Shown here piece by piece: positions 2,068-17,744 of a stretch of 64,000 nt of DNA. How positions within the stretch are numbered: position 1 is the stretch's first letter; the number at the start of each line of letters is the position of its first letter. Both the position numbers and the translations under genes were made by a program. The notes below the pieces were generated by a model. The model did no database searches. It was not told the origin of the DNA and saw nothing but the letters and a program-made list of their open reading frames with translations. The DNA lies in the NCBI RefSeq assembly GCF_002943525.1, contig NZ_CP025394.1, positions 6,773,001 through 6,837,000 on the forward strand. Direction: 5' to 3'. The DNA is from Kitasatospora sp. MMS16-BH015 (GTDB lineage: Bacteria; Actinomycetota; Actinomycetes; Streptomycetales; Streptomycetaceae).

Positions 2068-2207
2068 TGATTCCCCCTAAGTCGAATTTCCCGGGGTATG
2101 ACGAGCGGGTGGCGCGACCAGTGGCTTCCGGCCAGTTGATTCGTCTACCCCCTCTGCACGATGCCACCCGACAGACCCCAAGGTAAGTACTGACTTTTTG
2201 GTAACCA

Positions 2208-2345: not shown

Positions 2346-2390
2346 GCAGCCAGGCCCGGGGCGGCGGGGGTCCGCTCCGGGCCTGGCTGC
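2346..2390. terminator. Stem-loop terminator after the imine-reductase-like gene
   Basis: A 14-bp perfect stem (GCAGCCAGGCCCGG at 2346-2359 pairing with 2377-2390) encloses a G-rich loop. It lies just past the stop at 2414 of the minus-strand imine-reductase-like gene and separates it from the SARP gene. Confidence 0.6.
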
Positions 2391-2413
2391 TGTTCGGGGG
2401 GTGGGTCAGCGTG

Positions 2414-2875: not shown

Positions 2876-2958
2876 GACAGTAATTCCTGGGGTAGACATT
2901 GCATTCGGCATATCGGCGAGTTCGGGTCGAAACTAGTGGCCGTCCGGAGTCGCGGCAA

Positions 2959-2967
2959 GTACTTACC
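2959..2967 (-). promoter_or_regulatory. GGTAAGTAC element upstream of the imine-reductase-like gene
   Basis: The minus strand reads GGTAAGTAC, overlapping the palindrome AAGTACTT, about 85 bp upstream of the gene start at 2875. The same 9-mer occurs in two other promoter regions of the cluster (2182-2190 and 13089-13097). Its function is unknown. Confidence 0.35.
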
Positions 2968-3016
2968 TACAAGTCCGTGCCACGTCGGCCGGCGGGGATC
3001 CACGAGTCCACCGCCG

Positions 3017-3034
3017 GGTAACCGTCGGCTAACC
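3017..3034 (-). promoter_or_regulatory. Candidate SARP operator 1 (imine-reductase-like gene)
   Basis: On the minus strand GGTTAGC (3034-3028) and GGTTACC (3023-3017) are repeated with an 11-bp period, pointing toward the gene starting at 2875. The gap to the gene is longer than at the other sites and no clear -10 hexamer lies in phase, so this is one of the weaker assignments. Confidence 0.45.
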
Positions 3035-3052
3035 ACCGGGAGGAGGCCGGCA

Positions 3053-3085
3053 GATTACCGCTTCGTGACCGGGGCCGGGAATGAT
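3053..3085 (+). promoter_or_regulatory. Candidate SARP operator 2 and promoter (first SnoaL-like gene)
   Basis: GATTACC at 3053 and CGTGACC at 3064 are 11 bp apart. A -10-like AATGAT starts 9 bp after the second element, and the start codon at 3132 is about 61 bp downstream. The same pair of heptamers recurs exactly upstream of the FAAL operon at 3643. Confidence 0.6.
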
Positions 3086-3131
3086 TCCGAGCGGGACTTT
3101 CGCGCATCGAGAGAACGGGAGCACCACCACC

Positions 3132-3518
3132 ATGACCGACGCCTACGACTTCGCCATTCCGGACGACCCCGACCTGCAGAACGAGCTGTTCATCCGGGTC
3201 TTCAACGAGGGTGACGGGGCCGCCTTCGACTCGATGTACGCGCCCGACGCGATCTCCAACATGTCCGGGGTGGCGCTCACCGGGGCGGAGCGGACCGCCT
3301 TCTTCAAGGAATTCCTGGCCACCGGGCCGAAGATCCGCTCGCGGGTCAAGCAGACCTACACCACGGGCGACACCTCGCTGCTCATCGTGGACTACACCCT
3401 GGACATCCCGGGCCCCGAGGGGGTCCACACCGTGCAGGGCACCTGCACCGACGTGCTGTTCCGGGACGCGAACGGCAAGTGGACGATGGCCGTGGACCGG
3501 CCGGTCCCGACGGCCTGA
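3132..3518 (+). CDS. SnoaL-like / NTF2-fold protein
   Basis: A 128-residue protein starting at the ATG at 3132; GGGAG lies ten bases upstream. The sequence has the compact NTF2-like pattern of the SnoaL/DUF4440 group: an N-terminal helix with FNEGDGAAFDSMYAPDAI, a middle TGAERTAFFKEFL, then strands ending in GKWTMAVDRP. These folds act as small cyclases, isomerases or binding proteins in many polyketide clusters. It is clearly paralogous to the gene at 17134-17532 (shared FN.GD, MY..DAI, TG and GKW motifs). It follows a candidate SARP operator and is closed by its own terminator. A ring-forming or isomerising role on the polyketide imine is an inference; no catalytic residue can be assigned with certainty. 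Confidence 0.85.
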   Translation: MTDAYDFAIPDDPDLQNELFIRVFNEGDGAAFDSMYAPDAISNMSGVALTGAERTAFFKEFLATGPKIRSRVKQTYTTGDTSLLIVDYTLDIPGPEGVHTVQGTCTDVLFRDANGKWTMAVDRPVPTA

Positions 3519-3530
3519 CGGGTCGTCGGC

Positions 3531-3574
3531 GGCGGCGCCGGCTCCGGGTGATCTCGCCCGGGGCCGGCGCCGCC
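3531..3574. terminator. Stem-loop after first SnoaL-like gene
   Basis: A 12-bp arm, GGCGGCGCCGGC (3531-3542), pairs with GCCGGCGCCGCC (3563-3574), extended inward by CCGGG/CCCGG. It lies just downstream of the stop at 3518. Confidence 0.55.
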
Positions 3575-3642
3575 GCATTTCCCTGTCCGGCCGCCGGTGA
3601 ATCCCCGTCATTTCGGCGGTCTTTCCGGTGGGGGGAACGGGC

Positions 3643-3697
3643 GATTACCGCGCCGTGACCCGGCATTTGAGGGGTGGTGTGCCGGGCGCCTTAGGGT
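3643..3697 (+). promoter_or_regulatory. Candidate SARP operator 3 and promoter (FAAL-KASIII-carboxylase operon)
   Basis: GATTACC at 3643 and CGTGACC at 3654 are repeated with an 11-bp period. A -10-like TAGGGT occupies 3692-3697, 31 bp after the second heptamer. The first ORF of the operon starts at 3729. Confidence 0.65.
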
Positions 3698-3728
3698 CTG
3701 CCTTGACTGCGTTCTCCGGGGAGGGTGA

Positions 3729-3905
3729 ATGGAACCTGTGGCCGAGTACGTGAGGGTGGGGAAATCCGCGCGCGAGGTCGCCGAGCGGTCGGGCGGCGGC
3801 GATCCGGTGGAACTCCGACGGGTGGCGACCAACGCCGAGATGCTGCTGGCGATCTTCTCGCGGACCTCCGTGATCCGCCGGGCCGGAAGGAGCACCGAAG
3901 CATGA
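3729..3905 (+). CDS. 58-residue protein of unknown function, translationally coupled to the FAAL gene
   Basis: An ATG at 3729 follows a GGGGAGGG ribosome site, and the stop at 3903-3905 overlaps the start of the next gene as ATGA. The product (start MEPVAEYVRVGKSAREVAER) is rich in Arg, Glu, Ala and Val, with no signal peptide, membrane segment or phosphopantetheine Ser motif, so it is not a small acyl carrier protein. I do not recognise the family. Position as first cistron, good ribosome site and the exact 1-bp overlap argue that it is translated, either as a functional small protein or as a leader that couples translation of the FAAL. Confidence 0.6.
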   Translation: MEPVAEYVRVGKSAREVAERSGGGDPVELRRVATNAEMLLAIFSRTSVIRRAGRSTEA

Positions 3906-5686
3906 GCACGATCGGCGCCGATCTGGGGTCCGGTGAGGTGCGCAGCCTTCCGGACGCGCTGCGGCTGCGCAGCAGACTGCAGCCCGAGCAGACCGCCTAC
4001 GTCTTCCTGCGCAACGGCGAGGAGCCGGCGGCGAGCCTGACCTACGGTCAGCTGGACCTGGCCGCCCGGGTACGGGCGGGCTACCTGGTGGCGGCCGGGC
4101 TCGCCGGGGGCAGTGTGGTGCTGCTCTACCCGTCCGGGCTGGAGTTCGTCCGGAGCCTGCTGGGCTGCATGTACGCGGGCGTGGCCGGTGCCCCGGTGCA
4201 GGTGCCGCGCCGCCGACAGGGGCTGGCCCGGCTGCGCCGGGTGGCGGACGACGCCGGGACCACCACGGTGCTGACCACCACGGCCGTCAAGCGCGAGCTG
4301 GAGGAGAACTTCGCCGACGCGCCCGAGCTCGCGGGGCTGACCCTGGTGGACACCACGCTGCTGCCGGTCACCCTGGCGCACGGGTGGTGCTACGTCAGCC
4401 CGCCGGCCGAGGGGGTGGCGCTGCTCCAGTACACCTCCGGCTCCACCGGGGACCCGAAGGGCGTGGTGATCACGCACGCCAACTTCGCCGCCAACGCCGC
4501 CGAGACGGACGAGCTCTGGCCCTGCGGCGAGGACGCCCGGGTGGTCTCCTGGCTGCCGCTCTTCCACGACATGGGCCTGCTGTTCGGCGTGGTGCTGCCG
4601 CTCTGGGCCGGGGTGCCGTCCTACCTGATGGAGCCGGAGGCGTTCATCCGCCGCCCGGCCCGCTGGCTGGAGGCCGTCTCCCGGTTCCGGGGCACCCACG
4701 CGGCGGCGCCCAGCTTCGCCTACGAGCTGTGCGTCCGGGCCGCCCGGGAGGGCGGGGTCGGCGCCGAGCTGGACCTGAGCAGCTGGCGGGTGGCGGCGAA
4801 CGGTGCCGAGCCGGTGCGCCGGCAGACCGTCCAGGCCTTCGCCGAGGCCTTCGCGCCGCTGGGTTTCGCGGCCCGCGCGATGTGCCCGGGGTACGGGCTG
4901 GCGGAGAACACCCTCAAGGTCACCGGCAGCCCGCAGACCCGCGAGCCCGGGGTGCTCTGGCTGGCCGCCGAGGGCCTGCGCGAGGGGCGGGCCGAGCCCG
5001 TGGGCGAGACCGCGCCCGGCGCGGTGCCGCTGGTCAGCAGCGGGGTGACGGTGCCCGGCACGGTGGTGCGGATCGTCGATCCGGAGAGCCGCGTGGCCCG
5101 GCCGGACGGCCGGGTGGGCGAGATCTGGGTGGACGGCCCGTGCGTGGGCGCCGGCTACCGGGGCCGTCCCGAGGAGAGCGAGCTGACCTTCCGGGCCCGG
5201 ATCGCGGGCGAGGAGACCGGGCGGTACCTGCGCACCGGTGACCTGGGCCTGTTGCACGAGGGCGAGCTGTACGTCACCGGTCGGCTCAAGGACGTGATCA
5301 TCCGCCAGGGCCGCAACTACTACCCGCAGGATGTGGAGCTCTCGGCCGAGGGCGCGGTGCCGGGCCTGCACCCCAACTGCGCGGCGGCCTTCTCGGTCGA
5401 AGCGGACGGAGCTGACGGAACGGACGGAGCTGGCGGGCGGGAGCGGCTGGTGGTGCTGGTCGAGGCGGACGGCCGGGTGCTGAAGCAGCCGGGTCTGCGT
5501 GAGCTGCGCAAGCGGGTGCGGGACGCGATCTGGGAGAACCAGCGGCTGGAGGCCGACGAGATCGTGGTGCTCCGGCGCGGGGCGCTCTCCCGCACCTCCA
5601 GCGGCAAGGTGCAGCGGCGGCTCTGCCGGTCCCGTTACACCGGCGGGGAGTTGGCGCAGGCGATCGTCTCCGGTGGGGAGGAGTGA
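3902..5686 (+). CDS. Fatty acyl-AMP ligase (FAAL / FadD-like)
   Basis: A 594-residue adenylate-forming enzyme. Visible core motifs are the P-loop YTSGSTGDPKGVV, the FAAL-type SWLPLFHDMGL, the YGLAENTLKV segment that holds the A5 Glu, TGDLG with the ribose-binding Asp, GRLKDVIIRQGRNYYPQDVE and the late Lys in SRTSSGKVQRR. The layout follows FAALs (FadD32-like), which form acyl-adenylates and pass the acyl group to a carrier protein; some relatives make acyl-CoA instead. Its start overlaps the preceding ORF and its stop overlaps the KASIII start (TGATG). The PKS has a KSQ loading module, so a role in priming the main chain is unlikely. Supplying an acyl group for KASIII and the carboxylase is the contextual guess. 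Confidence 0.9.
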   Translation: MSTIGADLGSGEVRSLPDALRLRSRLQPEQTAYVFLRNGEEPAASLTYGQLDLAARVRAGYLVAAGLAGGSVVLLYPSGLEFVRSLLGCMYAGVAGAPVQVPRRRQGLARLRRVADDAGTTTVLTTTAVKRELEENFADAPELAGLTLVDTTLLPVTLAHGWCYVSPPAEGVALLQYTSGSTGDPKGVVITHANFAANAAETDELWPCGEDARVVSWLPLFHDMGLLFGVVLPLWAGVPSYLMEPEAFIRRPARWLEAVSRFRGTHAAAPSFAYELCVRAAREGGVGAELDLSSWRVAANGAEPVRRQTVQAFAEAFAPLGFAARAMCPGYGLAENTLKVTGSPQTREPGVLWLAAEGLREGRAEPVGETAPGAVPLVSSGVTVPGTVVRIVDPESRVARPDGRVGEIWVDGPCVGAGYRGRPEESELTFRARIAGEETGRYLRTGDLGLLHEGELYVTGRLKDVIIRQGRNYYPQDVELSAEGAVPGLHPNCAAAFSVEADGADGTDGAGGRERLVVLVEADGRVLKQPGLRELRKRVRDAIWENQRLEADEIVVLRRGALSRTSSGKVQRRLCRSRYTGGELAQAIVSGGEE

Positions 5687-6705
5687 TGGCGGCCGCACCG
5701 GCCCCGGCCGCCTTACGCGCCGCGCCGGCCGGCCCGGCGGGCTCCCGGATCCTCGGTGTCGGCGCCTACCGGCCGGCCCGGATCGTCGGCAACGAGGAGA
5801 TCTGCACCCGGATCGACTCCGACGACGCCTGGATCCGCCAGCGTTCGGGCATCGCCACCCGGCACTTCGCCGGGCCGGGCGAGACGGTGGTCACCATGGC
5901 GGTGGAGGCCGGGCTCAAGGCGCTGGCCCAGGCGGGGGTGGCCCCCGCCCAGGTCGACCTGGTGCTGCTCGCCTCGATGTCCCACCTCGGCCGCGCCTCG
6001 GCGGCGGCCCCGGAGGTGGCCCACCTGCTGGGCGCCGGCCGGGCGGCGGCCACCGACCTGAGCGCCGCCTGCGCGGGGTTCTGCTATGCGCTGGGGGTGG
6101 CCGACTCGATGATCCGGGCCGGCGCGGCCCGGCACGTGGTGGTGGTCGGGGCCGAGAGGATGACCGACATCGTCGACCCCTACGACCGGGACACCGCCTT
6201 CATCTTCGGTGACGGCGCCGGTGCGGTGGTGCTCGGCCCCGCCGCGGTACCGGGCGTCGGGCCGGTGGTCTGGGGCACCGAGGGCGACCGGCATGGGCTG
6301 ATCGCCCGCGACCGGTCCTGGCCGGAGGCCCGGGAGCGCCCCGACCCCTGGCCCACCCTGCGGATGGACGGCCCCCAGGTGTTCCGCTGGGCCATCGCCA
6401 AGGTGCCCGAGATCGGCGGCGCGGCGCTGGCCGCCGCCGGAGTCACCGCGGCCGATCTGGCCGCGTTCGTGCCGCACCAGGCCAACCTGAGGATCGTGGA
6501 CACCTCGGCCCGCAGGCTCGGCCTGCCCGGGCACACCGCGGTGGCCCGCGACATCGTCCGCTCCGGCAACACCTCGGCCGCCTCCGTCCCGCTGGCCCTG
6601 GACGACCTGCTGGCCCGGGGTGAACTCCTTAGCGGCGGCCTGGCGTTGCTGGTGGGCTTCGGCGCCGGGCTGGCCTACGCCGCCCAGGTGGTGGCGCTGC
6701 CATGA
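5686..6705 (+). CDS. 3-oxoacyl-ACP synthase III family protein (KASIII / FabH-like)
   Basis: A 339-residue thiolase-fold enzyme starting at the ATG that overlaps the FAAL stop. The catalytic triad is complete: Cys129 in [11 protein letters not shown], His264 in PHQANLRI and Asn295 in [10 protein letters not shown]. The length and the [13 protein letters not shown] segment near the N-terminus are typical of FabH. Such enzymes condense an acyl-CoA with malonyl-ACP, or act as acyltransferases in secondary metabolism. Being sandwiched between a FAAL and an acyl-CoA carboxylase suggests it helps build an acyl chain for an unusual extender or a side-chain acyl group. The stop overlaps an ATG at 6702 (ATGA). 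Confidence 0.9.
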
Positions 6706-6734
6706 CCGTAACGAGCACAGCCAAGGGAGACACC

Positions 6735-8309
6735 ATGCCTGGACACGGAGCCGGCACCACGGCCGAGCGGATCGCGGAGCTGACCCGTCGGCGGGCCGAA
6801 TCCCGCGCGCCGGTGGACGAGGGAGCCGTCCGACGCCAGCACGAGAAGGGCAAGTTGACCGCTCGCGAGCGGATCGACGCGCTGCTCGACCCGGGCTCCT
6901 TCGTCGAGTTCGACGCGCTGGCCAGGCACCGCTGCCACAACCTCGGGATGGAGCGCCAACGGCCGCTCGGGGACGGCGTGGTGACCGGCTACGGCACCGT
7001 AGACGGCCGCCAGGTCTGCCTGTTCGCCCAGGACTTCACCGTCTTCGGCGGCAGTCTGGGCGAGGTGTACGGCGAGAAGATCATCAAGGTGATGGACTTC
7101 GCCACCCGCACCGGTACCCCGATCATCGGCATCAACGACTCCGGCGGCGCCCGGATCCAGGAGGGCGTGGTCTCGCTCGCCCTCTACGCCGAGCTGGTCA
7201 AGCGGCACGTGGAGGCCTCCGGGGTCGTCCCGCAGATCTCGCTGATGACCGGCCCGTGCGCCGGCGGGGCGGTCTACGCCCCCGCGATCACCGACTTCGT
7301 GGTGATGGTGGACGGCATCTCGCACATGTTCGTCACCGGCCCGGACGTGCTGCGCACCGTGACCGGCCAGGAGGTGGACCGCGAGGAGCTGGGCGGCGCG
7401 CTCAGCCACAACACCGTCTCCGGCAACGCGCACTACCTGGCCGCCGACGAGAAGGACGCCTTCGAGTACGTCCGCCTCCTGCTGGGCTACCTGCCCGCCA
7501 ACAACATGGAGGACCCGCCGGTCTACCGCAGCGAGGCACCGGCCGGGCTGACCGAGAGCGACCTCGCCCTGGACACCCTCATCCCGGACGACCGCAACCG
7601 CCCGTACGACATGCTGCGGGTGCTGCACAGCGTGCTCGACGACGGCGAACTGCTCGAAGTGCAGCCGATGTTCGCGCGCAACATGATCTGCGGGTTCGGC
7701 CGGGTGGACGGGCGCAGCGTCGGCGTGGTGGCCAACCAGCCGATGCACCTGGCCGGGGTGATCGACATCGACGCGAGCGAGAAGGCGGCCCGGTTCATCC
7801 GGATGTGCGACGCCTTCCACGTGCCGGTGCTGACCTTCGTGGACGTGCCGGGCTTCATGCCCGGCCTCGACCAGGAGCAGGGCGGCATCATTCGGCGCGG
7901 CGCGAAGATGATCTACGCCTACGCGGAGGCCACCGTGCCGATGGTCACCGTGATCACCCGCAAGGCGTACGGTGGCGGCTACGGCGTGATGGGCTCCAAG
8001 CACCTGGGGATCGACGTCAACCTCGCCTGGCCGACGGCCGAGATCGCCGTGATGGGCGGCGACAGCGCGGTCAGCGTCCTGCACCGCAAGGCCCTGCGGG
8101 AGGCCGAGGACCCGGAGGCGGAGCGGGAGCGGCTGCGCACCGAGTACGAGCGGGCGCTCTGCAACCCCTACCTGGCGGCCGAGCGCGGCTACGTGGACGC
8201 GGTGATCCTGCCGCAGGAGACCCGCGCCCAGGTGGCCGGTGCGCTGCGGCTGCTCCGGGACAAGCGCAAGACCCGGCTGCCCCGCAAGCACGGGAACATC
8301 CCGCTGTGA
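6735..8309 (+). CDS. Acyl-CoA carboxylase carboxyltransferase (beta) subunit, PccB-like
   Basis: A 524-residue product from the ATG at 6735, preceded by a strong AAGGGAG site; an in-frame ATG at 6702 overlaps the KASIII stop and may be the coupled start. It has both crotonase-fold halves: [12 protein letters not shown] and [14 protein letters not shown] in the first, [24 protein letters not shown] and [14 protein letters not shown] in the second. In actinobacterial enzymes the residue after the last AYGGxY helps set substrate size (as I recall, Asp in propionyl-specific PccB). Here it is Gly417, which would open the pocket. This fits a carboxylase for longer acyl-CoA but does not prove it. 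The biotinylated alpha subunit is not in the window and is probably supplied by the housekeeping gene, as is usual. Confidence 0.92.
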
Positions 8310-8542
8310 CGGCGCCGGGGGAGGGGGAGGTGGGTCTGCGAGTCACCCGCGGGTGCCCGACGGATGCCGAACTCGCGGCCGTGGTCGTCGCGTTGGCCGT
8401 GGTCGCGGGTGGTCAGGGCGCGGCCGGCCGAGGTGCGGCGGCCGGGGGCGGCGGAGTGCCGCGCTCGGACCGGAGCGAGCGGCTGCGGCGGGCGCCGGAG
8501 CTGCGCGGCCCGGGGGCCTGGCGCGCGAGCGGCTGGCGCTGA
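8306..8542 (+). CDS. Acyl-CoA carboxylase epsilon subunit
   Basis: A GTG at 8306 overlaps the stop of the beta-subunit gene (GTGA) and opens a 78-residue frame. The N-terminal part reads [19 protein letters not shown] and the protein ends in [11 protein letters not shown], the hallmark C-terminus of the small AccE/PccE epsilon subunits of actinobacterial acyl-CoA carboxylases. These stabilise or activate the alpha-beta complex. The middle is low-complexity Gly/Ala/Arg. Presence of a dedicated epsilon next to beta shows that this carboxylase is a complete secondary-metabolism version, needing only a shared biotin subunit. It is the last gene of the 3729-8542 operon. Confidence 0.85.
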
Positions 8543-8546
8543 GCGT

Positions 8547-8594
8547 ACGACGGTGCCCGGCCTGCCCCCTCGGGGACGGGCCGGGCACCGTCGT
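8547..8594. terminator. Bidirectional terminator between epsilon subunit and thioesterase
   Basis: A perfect 16-bp stem (8547-8562 with 8579-8594) sits between the converging epsilon-subunit (stop 8542) and thioesterase (stop 8600) genes. Confidence 0.8.
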
Positions 8595-8599
8595 GTCGG

Positions 8600-9367
8600 T
8601 CAGGCGGGTTGGAGTGCGGTGCGGATCACCTTGGCGAGCTGCTCCACCGCGCCGTCGAGGTAGAAGTGGCCACCGCCGAACACCTCCAACTCGGCTGGAG
8701 CCGAGGTGAGTTCGAGCCAGCCGGCGGCGGCCTCGACCGGCACCACCGGGTCGGCGTCGCCGACCAGGGCGGTGAGCGGGCAGGGCAGCGGCGGCTGCGG
8801 CGTCCAGCGGTAGCCGCTGAGGGCCAGGTAGTCGGCACGCAGCACGGGCAGCACCAGGGCGAGCAGCTCCGGGTCATCGAACACGGCACCGCTGGTGCCG
8901 CCCAACAGGCGGATCCGGTCCAGCAGTTCGGTGTCGCCGCGGACCAGGTCGGCCGGGCCCGGACCGAGCGAGGGCGCGCTCCGGCCGGAGACGAAGAGCC
9001 GCACCGGGCCGGCCGCGGGGGCCTTCGCCGGTGGGGCCGTGAGCAGGCGGGCCGTCTCGTAGGCGACCAGCGCGCCCATGCTGTGGCCGAACAGGGCGTA
9101 CGGCCGGGCGGGGGCGCGGCGCAGTTCGGCCGCGACCGCCTCGGCCATCCCGGTGAGGAGGGTGGCGGGCGGTTCGAGACGGCGGTCCTGGCGGCCCGGG
9201 TACTGGACGGCCAGCAGCTCGACCTCGGGGGCGAGCGCGCGGGCCAGCGGGACGAACGCGCTGGCCGCGCCGCCGGCATGCGGGAAGCAGATCAACCGGG
9301 GCACGTCCGGCAGTGGCGCGGCCAGCCTGCGGAGCCAGCCCCGGCCGTCGGCGGGTGGGGTGGTCAT
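8600..9367 (-). CDS. Type II thioesterase
   Basis: A 255-residue alpha/beta-hydrolase of the standalone editing thioesterase type found beside PKS and NRPS genes. The N-terminal LICFPHAGGAASAF, nucleophile Ser96 in GHSMG, acid in GDADPVV and the His in GGGHFYLDG are all present. Such enzymes remove stalled or wrongly decarboxylated acyl groups from acyl carrier proteins. It is the second gene of a minus-strand pair, 9 bp downstream of the aminotransferase. The PKS ends in a reductase, so this protein is not the release enzyme. The same partnership of aminotransferase, type II thioesterase and acyl-CoA carboxylase is known in the coelimycin cluster. Confidence 0.93.
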   Translation of the reverse strand: MTTPPADGRGWLRRLAAPLPDVPRLICFPHAGGAASAFVPLARALAPEVELLAVQYPGRQDRRLEPPATLLTGMAEAVAAELRRAPARPYALFGHSMGALVAYETARLLTAPPAKAPAAGPVRLFVSGRSAPSLGPGPADLVRGDTELLDRIRLLGGTSGAVFDDPELLALVLPVLRADYLALSGYRWTPQPPLPCPLTALVGDADPVVPVEAAAGWLELTSAPAELEVFGGGHFYLDGAVEQLAKVIRTALQPA

Positions 9368-9376
9368 CGCGGCCCC

Positions 9377-10918: not shown

Positions 10919-10956
10919 GTCGGCCCTCCGGTGCTTGGTGGTGACGGTCGGGCCCG

Positions 10957-11001
10957 ACCATATGCGCGGCCCGCCCCCCTCGCGGTCACGGGCCGGTAAG
11001 C
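10957..11001 (-). promoter_or_regulatory. Candidate SARP operator 4 and promoter (aminotransferase operon)
   Basis: On the minus strand GCTTACC (11001-10995) and CGTGACC (10990-10984) repeat with an 11-bp period. A -10-like TATGGT (10962-10957) lies about 21 bp further on. The gene starts at 10918. Confidence 0.65.
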
Positions 11002-11030
11002 GGGCGCCGCGTCCCTCGGGGCGGATCTCC

Positions 11031-11074
11031 GGTTACCTGGGGGTGACCACGGGTGACAGCTGCCCCGGTAGCGT
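11031..11074 (+). promoter_or_regulatory. Candidate SARP operator 5 and promoter (flavin reductase)
   Basis: GGTTACC at 11031 and GGTGACC at 11042, with a weaker third unit GTGACAG at 11053, give three steps of 11 bp. A -10-like TAGCGT (11069-11074) lies 20 bp after the second heptamer. The gene start is 11136. This operator and operator 4 are back to back in one divergent region. Confidence 0.65.
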
Positions 11075-11135
11075 CGCAGGTCATTGACCATGAATCAGTC
11101 TGATGGAGCGTCACATTTACTCCCGGAAGGATGAC

Positions 11136-11678
11136 ATGTCCGACATCAGTCGCTCCTCCCGGCTGGTCGACCTCGACCAGCCGACGGCCGCCGCCTCGCT
11201 GCGCGAGGTGATGGCGCGGTTCGCCACCGGGGTGGTCGTGCTCACGGTCGGCGGGGAGTCCGTCCACGGCATGACCGCCACCGCGTTCAGCTCGGTCTCC
11301 TTGGAGCCGCCGATGGTGCTCTGCTGCGTGGCCCACAGTGCGGTGATGCACCAGGCGGTCCGGTCCGCCGGGCACTTCGCGGTCTCCCTGCTCGGTGTCG
11401 ACCAGGAGCCGCAGGCCCGGTACTTCGCCGACAAGCAACGCACCCTGGGCCCGGCCCAGTTCGCCACCGTCCGCACCACCGCCGGCGCCCGCACCGGCGC
11501 GCCGCTGCTGGACGGCGCGCTCGGCTGGCTGGAGTGCGAGCTGGTCGACTCGCACCTGGCCGGTGACCACACGATCTTCGTCGGCAGCGTGCTCGACTCC
11601 CGGCGCGGCCCCGCCCGGGAGGCCCTCCTCCACTACGAGGGCACCTTCCGGCCCGGAGCCCGGGAGGCGTCGGTGTAG
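11136..11678 (+). CDS. Flavin reductase (HpaC-like, FMN-binding split barrel)
   Basis: A 180-residue protein; the ATG at 11136 is preferred because GGAAGG ends five bases upstream, although an in-frame ATG exists at 11103. Family motifs are visible: LREVMARFATGVVVLT, GMTATAFSSVSLEPPMVLCCV, and HYEGTF near the end. Members reduce free FMN or FAD with NAD(P)H and hand it to a partner monooxygenase. The obvious partner is the acyl-CoA-dehydrogenase-like monooxygenase at 14243, under the same type of operator. Together they would form a two-component hydroxylase or N-oxygenase acting on the polyketide alkaloid. Confidence 0.9.
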   Translation: MSDISRSSRLVDLDQPTAAASLREVMARFATGVVVLTVGGESVHGMTATAFSSVSLEPPMVLCCVAHSAVMHQAVRSAGHFAVSLLGVDQEPQARYFADKQRTLGPAQFATVRTTAGARTGAPLLDGALGWLECELVDSHLAGDHTIFVGSVLDSRRGPAREALLHYEGTFRPGAREASV

Positions 11679-11697
11679 CCGCCGGGCTCCCGAGACA

Positions 11698-11745
11698 CGA
11701 CCGCCGCCGGTCGGCCCGCTGCCACGGGCCGACCGGCGGCGGTCG
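11698..11745. terminator. Bidirectional terminator between flavin reductase and P450
   Basis: A perfect 21-bp stem (11698-11718 with 11725-11745) and a 6-nt loop lie between the converging flavin-reductase and P450 genes. Confidence 0.85.
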
Positions 11746-11757
11746 TTCGGTACGGGC

Positions 11758-12987
11758 TCAGAGCAGGACCGGCAGCTCGCGGTGGCCGTTGGAGATGAAG
11801 GACTCCAGCCGGTCGAGCCGCTCGGCGGGGTGGGCGAGCCGGAGCCCGGGGAAGCGGTCGAACAGGGCCGAGACGGCGACGGTGGCCTCCAGCCGGGCCA
11901 GCGGCGCGCCGAGGCAGAAGTGCACGCCGTGACCGAAGGCCAGGTGGTCGCGGCGGGTGGCGCGGGTGAGGTCGAAGCGGTCGGCGCTCTCCCCGTGCAC
12001 CTGAGGGTCGCGACCGGCGCCGCCGAAGGAGACCAGGATCGGGTCGCCCTTCGCGATCGTCACGTCATCCAGTGCGATGTCCTCGACGGCGAAGCGCAGC
12101 GGCATGCTGGCGACCGGCGACTCGTACCGAAGGCTCTCCTCCACCGCGTCCTCCCAGGTCGCGGCGGAGCTCCGGATCAGCCCGAGCTGCTCGGGGTGGG
12201 CGAGCAGGGCGGTGACGGTGTGGTCGATCAGGTTGACCGTGGTCTCGTGCCCGGCCGAGTACATCAGGAACACGGTGTCGATCAGCTCGCGCTCGGTCAG
12301 CCCGGAGCCGTCCTCGTCCCGGACCGCGACCAGATCGCTGGTCAGGTCCTCGCCGGGCCGCGCCCGCTTGCTCGCGATGAACTCGGCCGCGAAGGTGTAC
12401 AGCGCGATCCCGTTGGCCTGCGCCTCCTCCTCCGAGAGCGAGGTCTGGAAGATCGCGTGCATCATCCGGAGCAGCTCCGGGCGGGACTCCTCGGGGATCC
12501 CGAGCAGCTCCGAGATCACCTGCACGGGCAGCGGGTAGGCGAATTCCGCTCGCAGGTCCACGGGGCCGTCGGCCGCGGTGCCGGCCAGCCGGTCCAGCAG
12601 CTCGCCGACGATCGCCTCGATCCTGGGCCGCAGCGCGGCCGTCCGGCGGGCGGTGAAGGCCCGGGCCACCAGCTTGCGCAGCCGGCTGTGCTCGGCTCCG
12701 TACGCCGTGATCATGTTCCGGTCCTGGACCCAGATGGCCAACGACCAGGACTTGGCCAGCTCGCCCTCGCCGTTCTCCCAGGCCGGCCAGTGCCGGTAGG
12801 AGTCCCGGGAGACCCGGTCGTCCGTCAGCAGCCGTTTGATCAGCTCCTGGTCGGTGACCGACCAGGCCCGTACCCCGCCGGGCAGCTCGACCAGGGTGGC
12901 CGGCCCCCTGGCGCGGAGCCGGGCGGCCTCCCCGTGGACGTCGCGCCCGGCCGGGTCGAGGACGTACGGGCAGGTTTCTTGCCTCAT
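11758..12987 (-). CDS. Cytochrome P450 (bacterial class I, CYP107-like)
   Basis: A 409-residue product from the ATG at 12987, which has GGGGAGA upstream; the frame extends further to 13152 but without a ribosome site. Diagnostic motifs are the I-helix AGHETT, the K-helix EESLRYE and the haem loop FGHGVHFCLGAPLAR with the ligand Cys358. Soluble, no membrane anchor. Typical of macrolide and polyketide tailoring hydroxylases or epoxidases. Its promoter carries the SARP-like repeats and is divergent from the SDR gene. Its likely substrate is the released polyketide imine or piperidine. Ferredoxin and its reductase are not in the window. Confidence 0.93.
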   Translation of the reverse strand: MRQETCPYVLDPAGRDVHGEAARLRARGPATLVELPGGVRAWSVTDQELIKRLLTDDRVSRDSYRHWPAWENGEGELAKSWSLAIWVQDRNMITAYGAEHSRLRKLVARAFTARRTAALRPRIEAIVGELLDRLAGTAADGPVDLRAEFAYPLPVQVISELLGIPEESRPELLRMMHAIFQTSLSEEEAQANGIALYTFAAEFIASKRARPGEDLTSDLVAVRDEDGSGLTERELIDTVFLMYSAGHETTVNLIDHTVTALLAHPEQLGLIRSSAATWEDAVEESLRYESPVASMPLRFAVEDIALDDVTIAKGDPILVSFGGAGRDPQVHGESADRFDLTRATRRDHLAFGHGVHFCLGAPLARLEATVAVSALFDRFPGLRLAHPAERLDRLESFISNGHRELPVLL

Positions 12988-13026
12988 CGGGTGTCTCCCC
13001 TGGTGGGATCGGGAACTTATCGACCG

Positions 13027-13059
13027 ACCATAGGAGGGCTTCGTCACTGGGTGTTCACG
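13027..13059 (-). promoter_or_regulatory. Candidate SARP operator 6 and promoter (P450)
   Basis: On the minus strand CGTGAAC (13059-13053) and AGTGACG (13048-13042) repeat with an 11-bp period, followed 9 bp later by a -10-like TATGGT (13032-13027). The P450 starts at 12987. Confidence 0.55.
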
Positions 13060-13088
13060 GGCCGGTCTTTCCACTCCACTGACCTCGG

Positions 13089-13117
13089 GGTAAGTACGAA
13101 CCTCATGGTGCGTACTT
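13089..13117. promoter_or_regulatory. GGTAAGTAC element and inverted AAGTAC/GTACTT pair upstream of the SDR
   Basis: GGTAAGTAC lies at 13089-13097 and a GTACTT follows at 13112-13117, giving an inverted repeat with 14-bp spacing in the P450/SDR divergent region. The 9-mer is shared with the regions upstream of the SARP gene and the imine-reductase-like gene. Function unknown. Confidence 0.35.
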
Positions 13118-13211
13118 GATCCACTCGGAAAGCTGGGGAATCCTGACGGCACAGCAGGAGAGTCCTTTGCATGAGGGCATGTCGCGCCTTCGGGCGGCCA
13201 GAGGGGATTTC

Positions 13212-13985
13212 ATGAGCAAGTACGCGGGCAAGAAGGCCGTAATCATCGGTGGGACGATCGGAATGGGCCTCGCCACGGCCCAGGCCCTGGTGGACGGCGG
13301 CGCCGAGGTGCTGCTCACCGGTCGGAACGAGAAGAACCTGGACGCGGCACGGAACGAGCTCGGTCCGTCCGCGCACGTGGTGCGTTCCGACACCGCCGAC
13401 CTGGGCGACATCGAGGCCCTCGGCGGCGTGGTCGAGGAGAAGTTCGGCGACTTCGACTTCCTCTTCGTCAACGCCGGCTACGCCCAGCTCGGCCCGTTCG
13501 GCCAGGTCACCGAGGAGTTCTTCGACCAGACCTTCAACGTCAACACCAAGGGCGCGTTCTTCACCGCGCAGCGGCTCGCCCCGCTGCTCAAGGACGGCGG
13601 CTCGATCGTCTTCACCACCTCGATCGCCAACGACTCGGGCAACCCGGGCATGGGCGTCTACTCGGCCTCCAAGGCCGCCGTCCGCTCGCTGACCAAGGTG
13701 ATCGCGGCCGAGCTGCTGCCGCGGAACATCCGGGTCAACGCGGTGAGCCCGGGCTTCATCCACACCCCGACCGCCGGCATCACCGGTGCCTCGGCCGAGA
13801 TGCTCGCCGCCTTCGAGGCGATCGGCGACCAGCTGACCCCGATGCGCCGGCACGGCTCCTCCGAGGAGGTCGCCCAGGCGGTGCTGTTCCTGGCCTTCGA
13901 CGCCACCTTCACCACCGGTGAGGAGCTGAACGTGGACGGCGGCCTCGGCCAGCGGATCACCCGGCCGCAGCCGCCGCAGCAGTAG
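13212..13985 (+). CDS. Short-chain dehydrogenase/reductase
   Basis: A 257-residue classical SDR from the ATG at 13212 (GAGGGG upstream). The cofactor motif is GGTIGMG at about residues 13-19, NAG is in VNAGYA, and the active site is Ser137 with Tyr150 and Lys154 (YSASK). The long substrate-loop region [14 protein letters not shown] is normal. An Arg near the end of beta-2 (TGRNEKNL) suggests NADP(H). In the cluster it could oxidise the C5 alcohol of the predicted chain to a ketone so that the terminal amine can close on it, or reduce a ring carbonyl; the sequence cannot tell which. No SARP-like repeat is obvious at its promoter, unlike its neighbours. Confidence 0.92.
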
Positions 13986-13999
13986 TCGCGGCCGTGTGA

Positions 14000-14053
14000 C
14001 CGAACGCGGTGCTGCCCCCGGACTCCGTCGTCCGGGGGCAGCACCGCGTTCGG
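14000..14053. terminator. Strong terminator after the SDR
   Basis: A perfect 24-bp stem (14000-14023 with 14030-14053) with a 6-nt loop, starting 14 bp after the SDR stop. Confidence 0.8.
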
Positions 14054-14145
14054 CCGCCGTTCCGTCCGAGTGGTGCGCTCCCATTCCCCGCCCATTCCCC
14101 GGTCATCGGCCGGTCATCGGTGTCGGACATTCCGCCGGATTCGCT

Positions 14146-14200
14146 GATGACCGGTGCGTGACTGACTCCTGGGCCGGTTCGGCGGAGCTTCCGGTACGTT
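14146..14200 (+). promoter_or_regulatory. Candidate SARP operator 7 and promoter (monooxygenase)
   Basis: GATGACC at 14146 and CGTGACT at 14157 repeat with an 11-bp period. A -10-like TACGTT (14195-14200) follows 31 bp after the second heptamer, the same distance as at operator 3. The gene starts at 14243. A second pair of GATGACC on the minus strand (14101-14107 and 14112-14118) faces it. Confidence 0.6.
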
Positions 14201-14242
14201 GTGCCGAAAGTTCCGCGAACCGATGAATCGAGAGGGCGGACC

Positions 14243-15418
14243 ATGACCTCGCAAACCGAATTCGAGAGCCTGCTGGATTCCGTCAGGGAAATCGTTCCGA
14301 CGCTCCGCAAGAATGGCCTCGAAGCGGAGGAGCAGCGCTGGATACCGGACGAGAACATTGCTCTCCTGGAGAAGGCCGGCGTCCTGCGGATGGCCACCCC
14401 GCGCCGCTTCGGCGGGCTCGACCTGCCGGTCGCGCAGCAGGCGGCGGTGCTGGCCGAACTCGCCCGGGGCTGCGCCTCGACGAGCTGGGTGGCGAGCGTC
14501 TGGGTGTCGAGCGCCTGGATGGCGACCCTCTACCCGGAGCAGCTCCAGCAGGAGATCTTCACCTCGCCCTCGATCCGGATCTCCGGCGGCTTCACCCCGA
14601 GCGGGGTGCTCACCCCGGTCGAGGGCGGGTACGTGCTCAACGGCAGCTGGAAGTTCAACTCCGGCTGCCGGGGCGCGGACTGGAACATCGCCACCGCCGT
14701 GGTGGAGCGGCCGGACGGCGGCTACGACGAGGCCGTCGCGATGGTGCCGATGTCGGACTTCTCGATCGAGGACGACTGGCACACCTCCTCGGTGGCCGCC
14801 ACCGGCAGCTGCACCTCCTCGGCGGCGGACGTGTTCGTGCCCGCCCACCGGGTGGTGATCTCGGCTGAGATGCTGGCCGAGCCGCCGGAGGGGTACGTCC
14901 CGCCGGCACCGACCGGCCGCGAGTACGGGCTCTTCAGCTACATCATCGCCCAGGGCGCGGCGTCCCTGGTGGGCATCGCGCGCGGCGCCCACGACCTCTT
15001 CCTGGAGCGGCTGCCCGGCCGCGGCATCACGTACACCTCCTGGACCGACCAGGCGCAGCACCCGCTGACCCAGATCCAGGTGGCCACCGCGGCGAGCAAG
15101 ATCGCGGCGGCGGAGGCACTGCTCGCCGGCCTCTACCGGACGATCCAGGAACGTGCCGACGCCGGTGAGCAGTTGACGCTGGAGGAGCGCGCCACCGTGC
15201 GCGGCCACGCGGCCTACGCGGTGGAGCTGGCCAAGGAGGCGACCACGGCCCTCTACGAGGCCAGCGGCGCCACGGCCATCCAGCGGGCGGTGCCGATCCA
15301 GCGCTTCCACCGCGACCTCCAGGGGCTGGCGCTGCACGGCATGATCCTGCTCCAGCCGAGCCTGGAGGTGTACGGGCGGGTGCTGCTCGGCCTCGACCCC
15401 GACACCCCGCTGCTCTGA
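14243..15418 (+). CDS. Acyl-CoA-dehydrogenase-fold flavin-dependent monooxygenase (group D type)
   Basis: A 391-residue protein from the ATG at 14243. It has the acyl-CoA dehydrogenase fold (LLEKAGVLRMATPRRFGGLDLP near the N-terminus, a central GGYVLNGSWKFNSGC beta-domain, a C-terminal helical domain with HRDLQGLALHG) but resembles the HsaA/DszC-like branch that uses reduced flavin and oxygen. These enzymes hydroxylate or N-oxygenate small substrates and need a separate flavin reductase; one lies at 11136. Inferred role: oxygenation of the alkaloid, at carbon or at nitrogen. A true acyl-CoA dehydrogenase is the alternative, but GSWKFNSGCRGADWN and the C-terminal HRDLQ are monooxygenase-like. 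Confidence 0.87.
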   Translation: MTSQTEFESLLDSVREIVPTLRKNGLEAEEQRWIPDENIALLEKAGVLRMATPRRFGGLDLPVAQQAAVLAELARGCASTSWVASVWVSSAWMATLYPEQLQQEIFTSPSIRISGGFTPSGVLTPVEGGYVLNGSWKFNSGCRGADWNIATAVVERPDGGYDEAVAMVPMSDFSIEDDWHTSSVAATGSCTSSAADVFVPAHRVVISAEMLAEPPEGYVPPAPTGREYGLFSYIIAQGAASLVGIARGAHDLFLERLPGRGITYTSWTDQAQHPLTQIQVATAASKIAAAEALLAGLYRTIQERADAGEQLTLEERATVRGHAAYAVELAKEATTALYEASGATAIQRAVPIQRFHRDLQGLALHGMILLQPSLEVYGRVLLGLDPDTPLL

Positions 15419-15557
15419 CCGCAGGCCGGCCCGGACCGGCGCCCGAACGGCCTCGTAGGCCCCCGTGGCCGCCCGTAGCCCTTGACCCCCGTAGCCATCG
15501 ATCCCGTAGTCCCGGCATACCCCCGGTGCCGTGGCACCAGCCCTAAGGAAGAGAAGA

Positions 15558-17018
15558 GTGAACGAGAACAGAGTTCCGGTCGTCCCGGGAGCCCGGCGCG
15601 CGCTGTCGCGCCGCAACCTGCTCAAGGCGACCGGCCTCGCCTCGCTGGTCAGCACGGCCGGCGTGGGGGTGGCGAGCGCGGACACCACCGGCACGGACTC
15701 CACGTCCAGCTGGTACGACGCGATCGTGGTCGGCGCCGGCTTCGCGGGCGTCACCGCCGCACGGGCCCTGCGGAAGCAGGGGCTGCGGGTGGTGGTGCTG
15801 GAGGCACGCGGCCGGATAGGTGGCCGGACCTGGACCGACACCTTCCTCGGTCAGCAGATCGAGTACGGCGGGCAGTGGGTCGGCTCCGCCCAGTCGCTGG
15901 TGATGGCCGAGCTCCAGCGCTACAACCTGGGCACGGTCTCCGGGAGCATGCCGGACCGGATGCTGCTGCCGGGCCCGGGCGGGCCGGCCCAGGTCGGGAT
16001 CGCCGACGCCGACGCCAAGATGAGCCAGCTCATGGAGCAGCTCTTCGCGGGGGCCAAGGACTACCTGCCCCGCCCGTCCGACCCGCTGTACCGCCGGGAC
16101 CTGCTGACCCCGATCGACAAGCTCTCCCTCCGGGACCGGCTGAATCAGCTCAACCTCTCGGCCCAGGACGAGAGTTGGCTCAGCGGTCTGACCGCCGGCC
16201 AGTCCGGTGGATCGAGTGCGATCGGCGGCCTGGCCGCGCTGGCGCACTGGTGGGCGCTCGCGGGCTGGAGCAACGACGGGTGGGAGGCGGCCACCGCCTA
16301 CCGCCCCGGCACCGGCATGGGCGGCCTGATCACGGCCATGCTCAACGACGCGGCCGTCGACCTGCGGCTCAACTCGCCGGTCGCCGCGATCGACGACAAC
16401 GGCTCGCGAGTCCAGGTCACCACCAAGTCCGGCCGCCGCTACTCGGCGCCGGTCGCGGTGGTGGCGGTGCCCGTCAACCTCTGGCAGACCATCCGGTTCA
16501 CCCCGGGCCTGCCCGCCGCCCACACCGCGGCGACCACCCAGGGCGTCGGCGTACCCAACGCCAGGAAGCTCTGGCTGTACGTCTCCGGGGTCACCGACCG
16601 GGTGGTGGCCCGGGGCGCGGAGGGGGACGTGATCACGACCCTGATCTCCCAGGGGCAGGTGGCGGGCGGCCAGCTCATGGTGGCCTTCAACGGCCTGCCG
16701 GCCCTGGACCTCACCAGCTCGACGGCGATAGAGAGCGCCGTGCGCCACTACCTGCCCTCGGCCCGGCTGCTCGACTACCGGGCGCAGGACTGGGGCAACG
16801 ACCCCTACTCCCTGGGGGGTTGGGCGCTCGGCAAGCCGGGGCAGCTCACCTCGCTCTACCCGGCTATCCAGCAGCCCCAGGGCCGGCTCTCGTTCGCCAC
16901 CGGTGACATCGCCAGTGGGTGGAACGGTTTCGTGGACGGTGCGATCGAGTCCGGCCTGACGGCCGCGGACCAGGCGATGCAGAGCTGGTCCCGGGTGGGT
17001 GCGGTGCGCCTGTCCTGA
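15558..17018 (+). CDS. Tat-secreted flavin amine oxidase
   Basis: A 486-residue protein from a GTG at 15558, with an AAGGAAG ribosome site. The first 45 residues are a twin-arginine signal peptide: SRRNLLKATG, a hydrophobic stretch, then SADTT as probable cleavage region. The mature protein starts with a dinucleotide-binding GAGFAGVTAARAL and carries EARGRIGGRTWT, YGGQWVG and a C-terminal FAD-binding SGWNGFVDGAIESG, the pattern of monoamine-oxidase-like enzymes. Folded export with FAD explains the Tat route. In a cluster predicted to make a cyclic amine, an exported amine oxidase could carry out the last oxidation outside the cell, limiting self-toxicity. Coelimycin also has an exported FAD enzyme, although of a different family as I recall. 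Confidence 0.92.
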   Translation: MNENRVPVVPGARRALSRRNLLKATGLASLVSTAGVGVASADTTGTDSTSSWYDAIVVGAGFAGVTAARALRKQGLRVVVLEARGRIGGRTWTDTFLGQQIEYGGQWVGSAQSLVMAELQRYNLGTVSGSMPDRMLLPGPGGPAQVGIADADAKMSQLMEQLFAGAKDYLPRPSDPLYRRDLLTPIDKLSLRDRLNQLNLSAQDESWLSGLTAGQSGGSSAIGGLAALAHWWALAGWSNDGWEAATAYRPGTGMGGLITAMLNDAAVDLRLNSPVAAIDDNGSRVQVTTKSGRRYSAPVAVVAVPVNLWQTIRFTPGLPAAHTAATTQGVGVPNARKLWLYVSGVTDRVVARGAEGDVITTLISQGQVAGGQLMVAFNGLPALDLTSSTAIESAVRHYLPSARLLDYRAQDWGNDPYSLGGWALGKPGQLTSLYPAIQQPQGRLSFATGDIASGWNGFVDGAIESGLTAADQAMQSWSRVGAVRLS

Positions 17019-17020
17019 AC

Positions 17021-17074
17021 CGACGGGACGGCCCTGGGCGGGGTGGCGCCACCCCGCTCAGGGCCGTCCCGTCG
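17021..17074. terminator. Bidirectional terminator between amine oxidase and second SnoaL-like gene
   Basis: A long inverted repeat: CGACGGGACGGCCCTG (17021-17036) pairs with 17059-17074, and the stem continues inward through CGGGGTGG/CCACCCCG. Confidence 0.75.
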
Positions 17075-17133
17075 AACCGAAAGACCGTGGCTCTCGGGAG
17101 TCACGGCCTTTTGACGATCCGTCAGACGGTTTG

Positions 17134-17532
17134 TCAGGCGGCTTCGGTGCCGAAGGGGTTGTCGATGGCGAACCGCCACTTGCCGTCCTCGCCCCGGCGC
17201 AGCACGTCCAGGCCGGTGCCCTGGAGGTGCTCCGGGCCCTCCGGGGTGGTCACGTCGATCTGCCAATCGACCACCAGGAGCGCGGTGTTGCCGGTCACGT
17301 GCTTCTCACGCAGCTCGGCGGTCATGGTCGGCCGCATCGAGAGGAACTCCGCGAGGGCCTCCTTGCGGGCCTGGCCGGTGAGCGGCTGGCCCGGCTGCCA
17401 GACCGAGATGGCGTCCTCGGTGTACATCCGGTTCACGGCCTCCACGTCACCGGAGTTGAAGGCCTGGACGTAGAGCCTGCCGTGCTCCTCGGCATCGCCG
17501 GCGAGCTCGAAGTTCTCAGCGGTGTTGGTCAT
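17134..17532 (-). CDS. SnoaL-like / NTF2-fold protein (second copy)
   Basis: A 132-residue protein, ATG at 17532. It shares its whole outline with the gene at 3132: [56 protein letters not shown] and a closing [10 protein letters not shown]. The two are diverged paralogues. Possible jobs are cyclisation, isomerisation or binding of a reactive imine or aldehyde. It is divergent from the first PKS gene. On its side of the shared region, GATGAGC (17614-17608) and AGTGAGG (17603-17597) with a TAGCTT -10 (17586-17581) form a weak version of the cluster's operator. Confidence 0.87.
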
Positions 17533-17580
17533 GTCGGAATTGCTCCCACTCTCTTCGCGGTCGAACCGGGACGTGCAGCG

Positions 17581-17614
17581 AAGCTATCCGGGGTCGCCTC
17601 ACTCGGCGCTCATC
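17581..17614 (-). promoter_or_regulatory. Weak candidate SARP operator 9 and promoter (second SnoaL-like gene)
   Basis: On the minus strand GATGAGC (17614-17608) and AGTGAGG (17603-17597) are 11 bp apart, and TAGCTT (17586-17581) follows after 10 bp. The heptamers deviate from the others at the last positions, so this is the weakest of the set. Confidence 0.35.
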
Positions 17615-17643
17615 CCGGGGGCACGGCACGCCCACCGACCAGC

Positions 17644-17698
17644 CCCTACCGGTGGGTTACCCGGACGTTACCGGGCGCTGGGACGGCCCGGCGAGACT
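17644..17698 (+). promoter_or_regulatory. Candidate SARP operator 8 and promoter (PKS genes)
   Basis: Three units with an 11-bp period: CCCTACC at 17644, GGTTACC at 17655 and CGTTACC at 17666. A -10-like GAGACT (17693-17698) lies 20 bp after the last unit. PKS translation starts at 17742-17745. Confidence 0.65.
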
Positions 17699-17744
17699 GC
17701 AGAACGTGCAGTCCCGAATGTCGAGGAAGGGGAATCCGGACGTG

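Follow-up and report, generated by a model that had tools for sequence, protein, structure and literature searches.

The cluster and its heptamer arrays

We analyzed a 64,000-nucleotide stretch of Kitasatospora sp. MMS16-BH015 (NZ_CP025394.1, positions 6,773,001 to 6,837,000; hereafter the window), part of one 8.96-Mb contig (8,963,858 bp), with a focus on short direct repeats that precede the genes of a biosynthetic cluster. The left edge of the window holds the gene of a Streptomyces antibiotic regulatory protein (SARP) activator. It is followed by a truncated imine reductase gene (2414-2875, minus), the cyclase-like gene SnoaL1 (3132-3518), genes for a FAAL, a ketosynthase III (KSIII) and a carboxylase-type subunit (3729-8309, treated here as a single operon), an aminotransferase-thioesterase unit (10918-8600), a flavin reductase (11136-11678), a P450 (12987-11758), an SDR (13212-13985), an ACAD-like monooxygenase with an amine-oxidase-like FAD enzyme (14243-17018), SnoaL2 (17532-17134) and modular polyketide synthases (PKSs).

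The SARP carries a BTAD domain (Pfam, 9.3e-48, 162.7 bits) and an AAA_16 domain (6.5e-8, 33.7 bits), both above cut-off, and a Trans_reg_C match of 25 bits, just under the cut-off of 26.2. This is the layout of the ATPase-bearing SARP family, with a Trans_reg_C and BTAD N-terminus and an AAA/NTPase part. Another SARP-like gene (35% identical) is located beyond the right edge of the window (L007:3465 onward, genome position ~6839965). The third PKS has a terminal domain of the thioester-reductase type (NAD_binding_4, 3.9e-66). None of the 25 family matches listed for the aminotransferase is over its own cut-off, and its relatives are 50-54% identical. With a modular PKS ending in a thioester reductase and a class III aminotransferase, the cluster is of the type known from argimycin P (arp) and coelimycin (cpk).

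The closest relative, in genome G104, holds the SARP, FAAL, KSIII, aminotransferase, flavin reductase, P450 (72% identical), SDR (82%), ACAD-like, amine-oxidase-like, both SnoaL and the PKS genes, as well as an HxlR-family gene (78%), and the orthologous clusters of G016 and G036 hold a subset of this gene set. This co-occurrence bears out an initial annotation of this DNA, which had assigned the flavin reductase, P450, monooxygenase, aminotransferase, FAAL operon and PKS to one pathway. The FAAL, KSIII and carboxyltransferase-type genes (3902-8309) are common to the window and G104, the last only partly, and found no match in the stretches fetched from G016 (60 kb) and G036 (19 kb), which suggests an added starter-unit or tailoring module. 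The imine reductase has 153 aa compared to 293 aa in G016; it lacks an internal segment behind residue ~70 as well as some of the C-terminus and, judged by its sequence, looks decayed. The fetched G104 stretch gave no imine-reductase match.

Nine arrays of 7-bp elements had been described in the initial annotation, and all nine could be read back with the same heptamers, strands, spacers and coordinates (Table 1). Their make-up needed some revision: the arrays before the P450 and SnoaL2 genes, described as pairs, are triplets (13070-13042 and 17625-17597), and the weak imine-reductase pair at 3034-3017 is present and has a third weak copy at 3012-3006. The arrays had been placed upstream of almost every transcription unit. 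This is a fair description, as they precede nine of 11 units by our own unit count; the SDR unit has none, and the SARP gene has only a GGTTACC with a poor second half. The consensus reads G-A/G-T-T/G-A-C-C followed by C-G-T-G-A-C-C, often with a weaker third element with a T-G core. All arrays consist of at least two heptamers as direct repeats at an 11-bp period, the architecture of a SARP operator.

Table 1. Heptamer arrays, palindromes and regulatory genes in the window (offsets in bases from the end of the second heptamer to the -10 element, unless specified)
Feature	Position	Strand	Remarks
SARP activator gene (ArpRI/PimR-like, ATPase-bearing)	1..2067	-	GTG start at 2067; runs past the left edge
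Palindrome GTAAGTACTGAC	2183..2194		~116 bp before the SARP start
Palindrome GCAAGTACTTAC	2955..2966		Before imine reductase; counterpart in G016/G036
Weak array GGTTAGC/GGTTACC/GGTGGAC	3006..3034	-	Before truncated imine reductase; no in-phase TANNNT; SARP control doubtful
GATTACC-N4-CGTGACC	3053..3070	+	Before SnoaL1; no in-phase TANNNT
GATTACC-N4-CGTGACC	3643..3660	+	Before FAAL/KSIII/carboxylase-type genes; -10 TAGGGT 3692-3697, offset 31
GCTTACC-N4-CGTGACC	10984..11001	-	Before aminotransferase-thioesterase; -10 TATGGT 10962-10957, offset 21
GGTTACC-N4-GGTGACC	11031..11048	+	Before flavin reductase; -10 TAGCGT 11069-11074, offset 20
Triplet AAAGACC/CGTGAAC/AGTGACG	13042..13070	-	Before P450; -10 TATGGT 13032-13027, offset 20 from second heptamer, 9 from third
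Palindrome-like GTAAGTACGAAC	13090..13101		Two mismatches; before SDR
GATGACC-N4-GATGACC, opposite-strand pair	14101..14118	-	~28 bp upstream of the ACAD operator
GATGACC-N4-CGTGACT	14146..14163	+	Before ACAD-like monooxygenase and amine-oxidase-like enzyme; -10 TACGTT 14195-14200, offset 31
Weak triplet CGTGCCC/GATGAGC/AGTGAGG	17597..17625	-	Before SnoaL2; -10 TAGCTT 17586-17581, offset 21/10
Triplet CCCTACC/GGTTACC/CGTTACC	17644..17672	+	Before PKS1; candidate -10 GAGACT 17693-17698 (by eye; not TANNNT), 20 bases past last heptamer
HxlR-family regulator gene	48616..48954	-	Pfam HxlR 3.2e-29; best of the genome's 11 HxlR matches

The heptamer pairs are concentrated in the cluster

In the 8,963,858-bp genome, we counted 15 exact matches to the core TKACC-N5-GTKACC (3 for the reversed-pattern control). 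Five of these matches lie within this 14.6-kb stretch and 10 in the remaining ~8.95 Mb; when the first half is restricted to TTACC, five of six genome matches are in this cluster. Since the core pattern was derived from these sites, the genome count tests specificity and not discovery. The initial annotation had named similar density in unrelated promoters as an argument against its reading; with the consensus pattern rather than a full matrix, the exact core turned out to be concentrated here. With up to one mismatch, the 64-kb window contains nine matches, all between 3017 and 17672, whereas dinucleotide shuffles (n = 100) yielded a mean of 2.89 and a maximum of 8, so that none of 100 reached nine.

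The 11-bp offset was also distinct. At a threshold of 13, a pair matrix found 10 pairs at this offset in positions 1-17745 compared to 0-2 for every other offset from 7 to 24; because the matrix was trained on eight window pairs, the spacing test is partly circular in the window, but not in other genomes. A matrix built from 23 sites of other clusters gave its top seven window scores to 3053, 3643, 11031, 14146, 17655, 14118(-) and 11001(-), a rescoring that is only partly independent as these 23 sites had originally been chosen with the window matrix.

PhoP and AfsR are general regulators, and the repeats could be their boxes, placing the cluster under phosphate or global control by OmpR-type regulators that read 11-bp direct repeats of the same architecture. 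However, the PhoP heptamer consensus GTTCACC has a C at position 4, where the heptamers of the cluster have T or G. Further, GTTCACC-N4-GTTCACC with up to one mismatch has 10 genome matches, of which one is in the window (at ~61.8 kb) and none between 3 and 17.7 kb (AfsR boxes were not searched as such). On these two counts we rejected the assignment of the arrays as PhoP boxes. According to the accessible text of PMC10972967, the sites of PhoP and AfsR overlap at afsS, and AfsR reads the repeat CGTT(T/C)ATCGNN, which aligns with G-A-T-T-A-C-C. The pairs nevertheless concentrate around one SARP clade and are found only at control frequency near distant SARPs and in control stretches (see below), and we regard control by PhoP or AfsR as highly unlikely.

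The operator keeps a fixed helical phase to the -10 element

The -10 elements lie 9/10 + 11n bases past the second heptamer, that is at 9/10, 20/21 or 31/32, and six of the nine named window arrays follow this phase by the TANNNT rule. In the 46 loci with closer SARP relatives (survey below), 62 pairs scored at least 14, with 29 TANNNT within 60 bp behind them. Twenty-three of the 29 were in phase: counted from where the second heptamer ends, 12 were at 20/21 and 11 at 31/32. Three of the 23 sites are near-copies (L140-L142). By comparison, 27 control pairs from distant-SARP and control stretches (threshold 12) had three TANNNT, none of them in phase.

We define a composite site as a 7-4-7 heptamer pair with an in-phase TANNNT. 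A refined matrix trained on the 23 phased sites found 97 composites in the 46 loci at threshold 6, compared to 1-6 in nine shifted phases (-5 to +8) and 2-8 in six altered heptamer spacings; 20 control stretches gave one composite compared to 0-2 out of phase. A different set, obtained at threshold 8 from the 46 loci, L039, L041, L152, L153 and the window, also comprises 97 sites and was reduced to 74 by removing near-identical ones; the 74 non-redundant sites represent the window, G016, G036, G104 and the 46 loci. Among them, the 31/32 class has a weaker third element that keeps the register, with T at offset 6 in 28 of 33 sites, and a fourth is not evident; the third element of the 20/21 class (37 sites) is fainter. 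In most cases the last conserved element therefore stops 20/21 bases short of the -10.

As GTGACC resembles TTGACA and is followed by TANNNT, the heptamers might be ordinary -35 elements (GTGACC/TTGACC) of standard sigma-70-type promoters. The gap from GTGACC to TANNNT is, however, 20/21 or 31/32 bp and not the 17-18 bp of standard -35 to -10 spacing, the spacing test requires a copy 11 bp upstream, and outside the cluster the genome has few exact core pairs, as given above. We consider this explanation extremely improbable.

Orthologous promoters were compared as the initial annotation had suggested. The aminotransferase, ACAD, SnoaL2 and PKS promoters of G016 and G036 carry the operator with TANNNT at 32 or 21, and the SnoaL2 counterpart has the same TAGCTT at 21. 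G104 has heptamer pairs before the aminotransferase, ACAD, PKS, FAAL, SnoaL1 and flavin reductase genes; TANNNT is in phase before the aminotransferase (31) and flavin reductase (32) genes but not before the other four. The GAGACT behind the PKS array recurs in G104 at 21, and the G104 region between SnoaL1 and SARP contains a GGTTACC-AGTCAGT pair with TATCTT at 21. A block related to the opposite-strand pair at 14101..14118 occupies the same place in G016 and G036; no known gene faces that direction there.

The putative operator follows one clade of SARPs

Using the 265-residue N-terminus of the SARP as query, we searched 293 genomes of the order and found relatives (E <= 1e-60) in 61, including the window's own; the others are 48-69% identical. 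Eight candidates were scored per genome, and 80 matches were listed besides the window's own, of which 73 are covered by the 60 stretches analyzed. Twenty control stretches were placed arbitrarily, not randomly, in 18 of the same genomes, and the orthologous clusters of G016 and G036 were added. Aminotransferase relatives at L009-L014, considered as orthologous clusters, were rejected as such: they represent a different aminotransferase-ACAD-PKS family with no SARP in the fetched 17-21 kb, and were used as a control.

With the window matrix at threshold 14 (groups by genome-search identities), the 20 loci with the closest SARPs had 35 pairs at 11 bp, compared to means of 4.0 for five frame-matched spacings and 6.7 for all others. 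The next 10 loci had 7 (frame-matched 3.2) and the middle 16 had 20 (frame-matched 3.2). The 14 most distant loci had only 2 (means 2.8 and 4.5), and the 20 control stretches 3 (means 5.0 and 8.3).

Composite sites gave the same picture (window-only matrix; SARPs divided at 56.5% by tblastn identity, with 43 loci above and 17 below). They were found in 24 of 26 loci with a SARP of at least 56.5% and two or more of seven alkaloid genes, and in 8 of 17 loci with such a SARP and fewer alkaloid genes, where five of the eight positives retain the aminotransferase. Loci with more distant SARPs were positive in one of 17 cases, the L009-L014 controls in none of six and the control stretches in none of 20. 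With the phase shifted by five bases, the counts in the three SARP groups dropped to 2/26, 0/17 and 0/17. The refined matrix gave 25/26, 9/17, 6/17, 0/6 and 0/20 for the same five groups. The operator follows the SARP and, even more, the combination of SARP and alkaloid genes.

Another regulator of the clusters (a second SARP, a LuxR or an HxlR protein) could bind the repeats, with the SARP clade as a fellow traveller. SARP and alkaloid genes are strongly linked, the operator is more common in close-SARP loci with an aminotransferase (26/30) than without (6/13), and several loci hold a second SARP (34-40% identical). However, the L009-L014 loci lack composites, although they are of a different cluster family, and the operator is still present in L088, L097 and L100, which have the SARP but lack an aminotransferase and carry at most one other alkaloid gene. 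HxlR-type regulators bind palindromes, and a separate palindrome is present in the cluster. Taken together, we judge a different regulator to be improbable.

We consider it very likely that the repeats serve as operator for the ArpRI-type SARP activator encoded in the cluster itself, which is predicted to bind them. This reading is supported by the genome concentration, the 11-bp spacing, the phase to the -10 element, the conservation of the sites and their co-occurrence with the SARP clade. The initial annotation had proposed a SARP operator from the repeat architecture; that it follows close SARP relatives across genomes, in 11-bp phase with the -10, strengthens the proposal.

A number of observations weigh against it. 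Three of the nine named arrays (3053, 17644/17655 and 3034-) have no in-phase TANNNT, and the distance from operator to -10 varies by whole turns, so that one fixed activation geometry misfits some sites. Twelve of the 46 close-SARP loci lack a composite at threshold 6, as does L076 at threshold 8 despite a SARP of 65% identity. Conversely, the refined matrix finds one site each in the six positive distant-SARP loci, and the 14 distant loci hold seven in-phase composites compared to 0-2 out of phase (threshold 6), so the clade boundary is not sharp. The aminotransferase split given above means that SARP and alkaloid genes are not fully separable as correlates. Additionally, loci of one family are related (near-copies L140-L142; L144 and L145), and the counts overstate their independence.

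The recognition helix alone seems not to explain the specificity: RKILQNAVWGLR and RKMVQNAVSGLR differ little, and G016 and G036 have NAVSGLR yet keep the operator. In the alkaloid-type clusters at L136, L137, L140-L142, L144 and L145, two SARPs of the clade face each other about 5 kb apart, and a third SARP (37-38% identical) is also present.

A palindrome and an HxlR-family regulator

A second putative operator, a palindrome near GTAAGTACTTAC, is found at three promoters of the cluster, those of the SARP, imine-reductase and SDR genes. The genome contains three copies with up to one mismatch, and two of these belong to the cluster. The copy before the SARP gene overlaps a weak SARP-type pair, GGTTACC-N4-AGTCAGT (2206-2189), and the same overlap exists in G104, where it is located ~440 bp ahead of the SARP start as aligned. 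The HxlR relative of G016 and G036 (68%) is encoded just ahead of the SARP gene, and palindromes are present upstream of it and at the imine reductase. Both HxlR relative and palindrome are present in G016, G036 and G104. The link is not general: the 20 kb of L072 contain an HxlR relative (59%) but lack a palindrome with up to two mismatches. From these few cases, the palindrome is perhaps a candidate target of the cluster's HxlR-family regulator.

Proposed regulation of the cluster

We propose that one winged-helix domain of the SARP would bind each 7-bp element, one element per helical turn, so that two or three protomers may align on one face of the DNA. The last conserved element would, as a rule, end 20/21 bp before a TANNNT -10. 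Once bound, the SARP would bring sigma-HrdB RNA polymerase to promoters that lack a usable -35, in the manner shown by the AfsR structure. At least seven units would be co-activated (SnoaL1, the FAAL operon, aminotransferase-thioesterase, flavin reductase, P450, monooxygenase-oxidase and PKS), and SnoaL2 more weakly. The regulon that the initial annotation had assigned to the left-edge SARP is thereby supported overall, with the exception of the weak imine-reductase array, which has no TANNNT behind it and whose control by the SARP is doubtful. An HxlR-family repressor may act on the SARP gene through the palindrome until relieved by some signal, giving a cascade from HxlR to SARP to the biosynthetic genes. 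The phased -10 elements, the relationship to arp and the palindromic operator go beyond the initial annotation.

Extending this to the clade, we lean slightly towards a common code: the SARPs of alkaloid clusters (argimycin, coelimycin and relatives, including CpkO) would share NNTKACC-N4-SGTGACC, to which a third element with a T-G core may be added. Their last conserved unit would lie 20/21 bp before the -10, one turn above that of AfsR, the length of the two- or three-unit array would set the phase, and in the window the SARP gene would be gated by an HxlR-family repressor through the palindrome overlapping a SARP half-site. Such a sequence code would belong to a SARP clade that apparently controls a large family of polyketide-alkaloid clusters. 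It could define regulons and cluster borders from DNA, it predicts which promoters require the SARP, and it makes the missing CpkO and ArpRI sites testable. SARP operators as a type are known; what seems to be new is the heptamer, its geometry and the code across the clade. In the literature searched, mostly openly available papers seen in part, no such operator is named for these clusters, and a prior description is possible.

Comparison with known SARP systems

Production of argimycin P in S. argillaceus is abolished by loss of the SARP ArpRI (PMC5300972, PMC5820336, accessible text), and these texts name no operator for arp in the parts available. Compared by kind and size, with sequences unaligned, the gene products described in PMC5300972 match those of the window: oxidase 483 compared to 485 aa (window start chosen by eye), dehydrogenase 392 and 391, aminotransferase 534 and 513, flavin reductase 182 and 180, thioesterase 257 and 255, two cyclases 137/136 and 128/132, and PKSs 4625/3575/2203 and 4602/3485/2161. 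Both clusters have a SARP with AAA_16. The window additionally has the FAAL, KSIII, carboxylase-type subunit, P450, SDR and HxlR genes, whereas arp has the TetR repressor ArpRII and an imine reductase of 293 aa, compared to 153 aa in the window. The sites of the window agree with the ArpRI dependence of the aminotransferase-thioesterase, ACAD-oxidase and PKS genes, and its imine reductase gene is preceded by a weak SARP-type array and by another type of operator. ArpRI-independent promoters were additionally proposed for arpK, arpHI and arpHII in the accessible part of the arp paper; unlike in that proposal, the flavin reductase and SnoaL1 genes of the window have strong sites.

In the coelimycin-like locus L077/L154 (Streptomyces sp. 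RerS4 plasmid; coelimycin-like by annotation), the SARP is 61% identical and lies between an aminotransferase and a FAD-binding protein. We take this gene order to resemble cpk, where cpkO presumably sits between cpkG and cpkH. In L077, the region between the PKS and FAD monooxygenase genes carries the operator with phased -10 elements in both orientations, and in L078 and L087, coelimycin-like by homology only, the operator is present on both strands before the PKS. For CpkO, earlier studies had determined no DNA binding sites (PMC8062868, 2021, in part), and two later papers, as far as accessible, give none either.

The operators of the SARP-LAL regulators PimR, SanG and PolR are 7-4-7 direct repeats of two or three units, read by a SARP fused to an ATPase half (PMC5930380, accessible part); the window likewise has 7-4-7 repeats of two or three units and an ATPase-bearing SARP. 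The heptamers differ: that of PimR is CGGCAAG (reverse complement CTTGCCG), whereas those of the window center on TKACC. A PimR-type operator was rejected, as CTTGCCG-type pairs show no 11-bp peak in any of the four groups fetched, and by this test the PimR code is not used at the distant SARP loci either.

The operator shares with that of AfsR a similar heptamer, repeated every 11 bp along one face of the helix, and a position ahead of a weak -10. AfsR repeats are located at -40 to -30 and -29 to -19 (PMC10936776, accessible part), which by our arithmetic, with a standard -10 position, puts the last heptamer about 10 bases before the -10. In the clade of the window SARP, the element beside the -10 is degenerate, and the conserved elements seem as a rule to end one turn upstream of those of AfsR.

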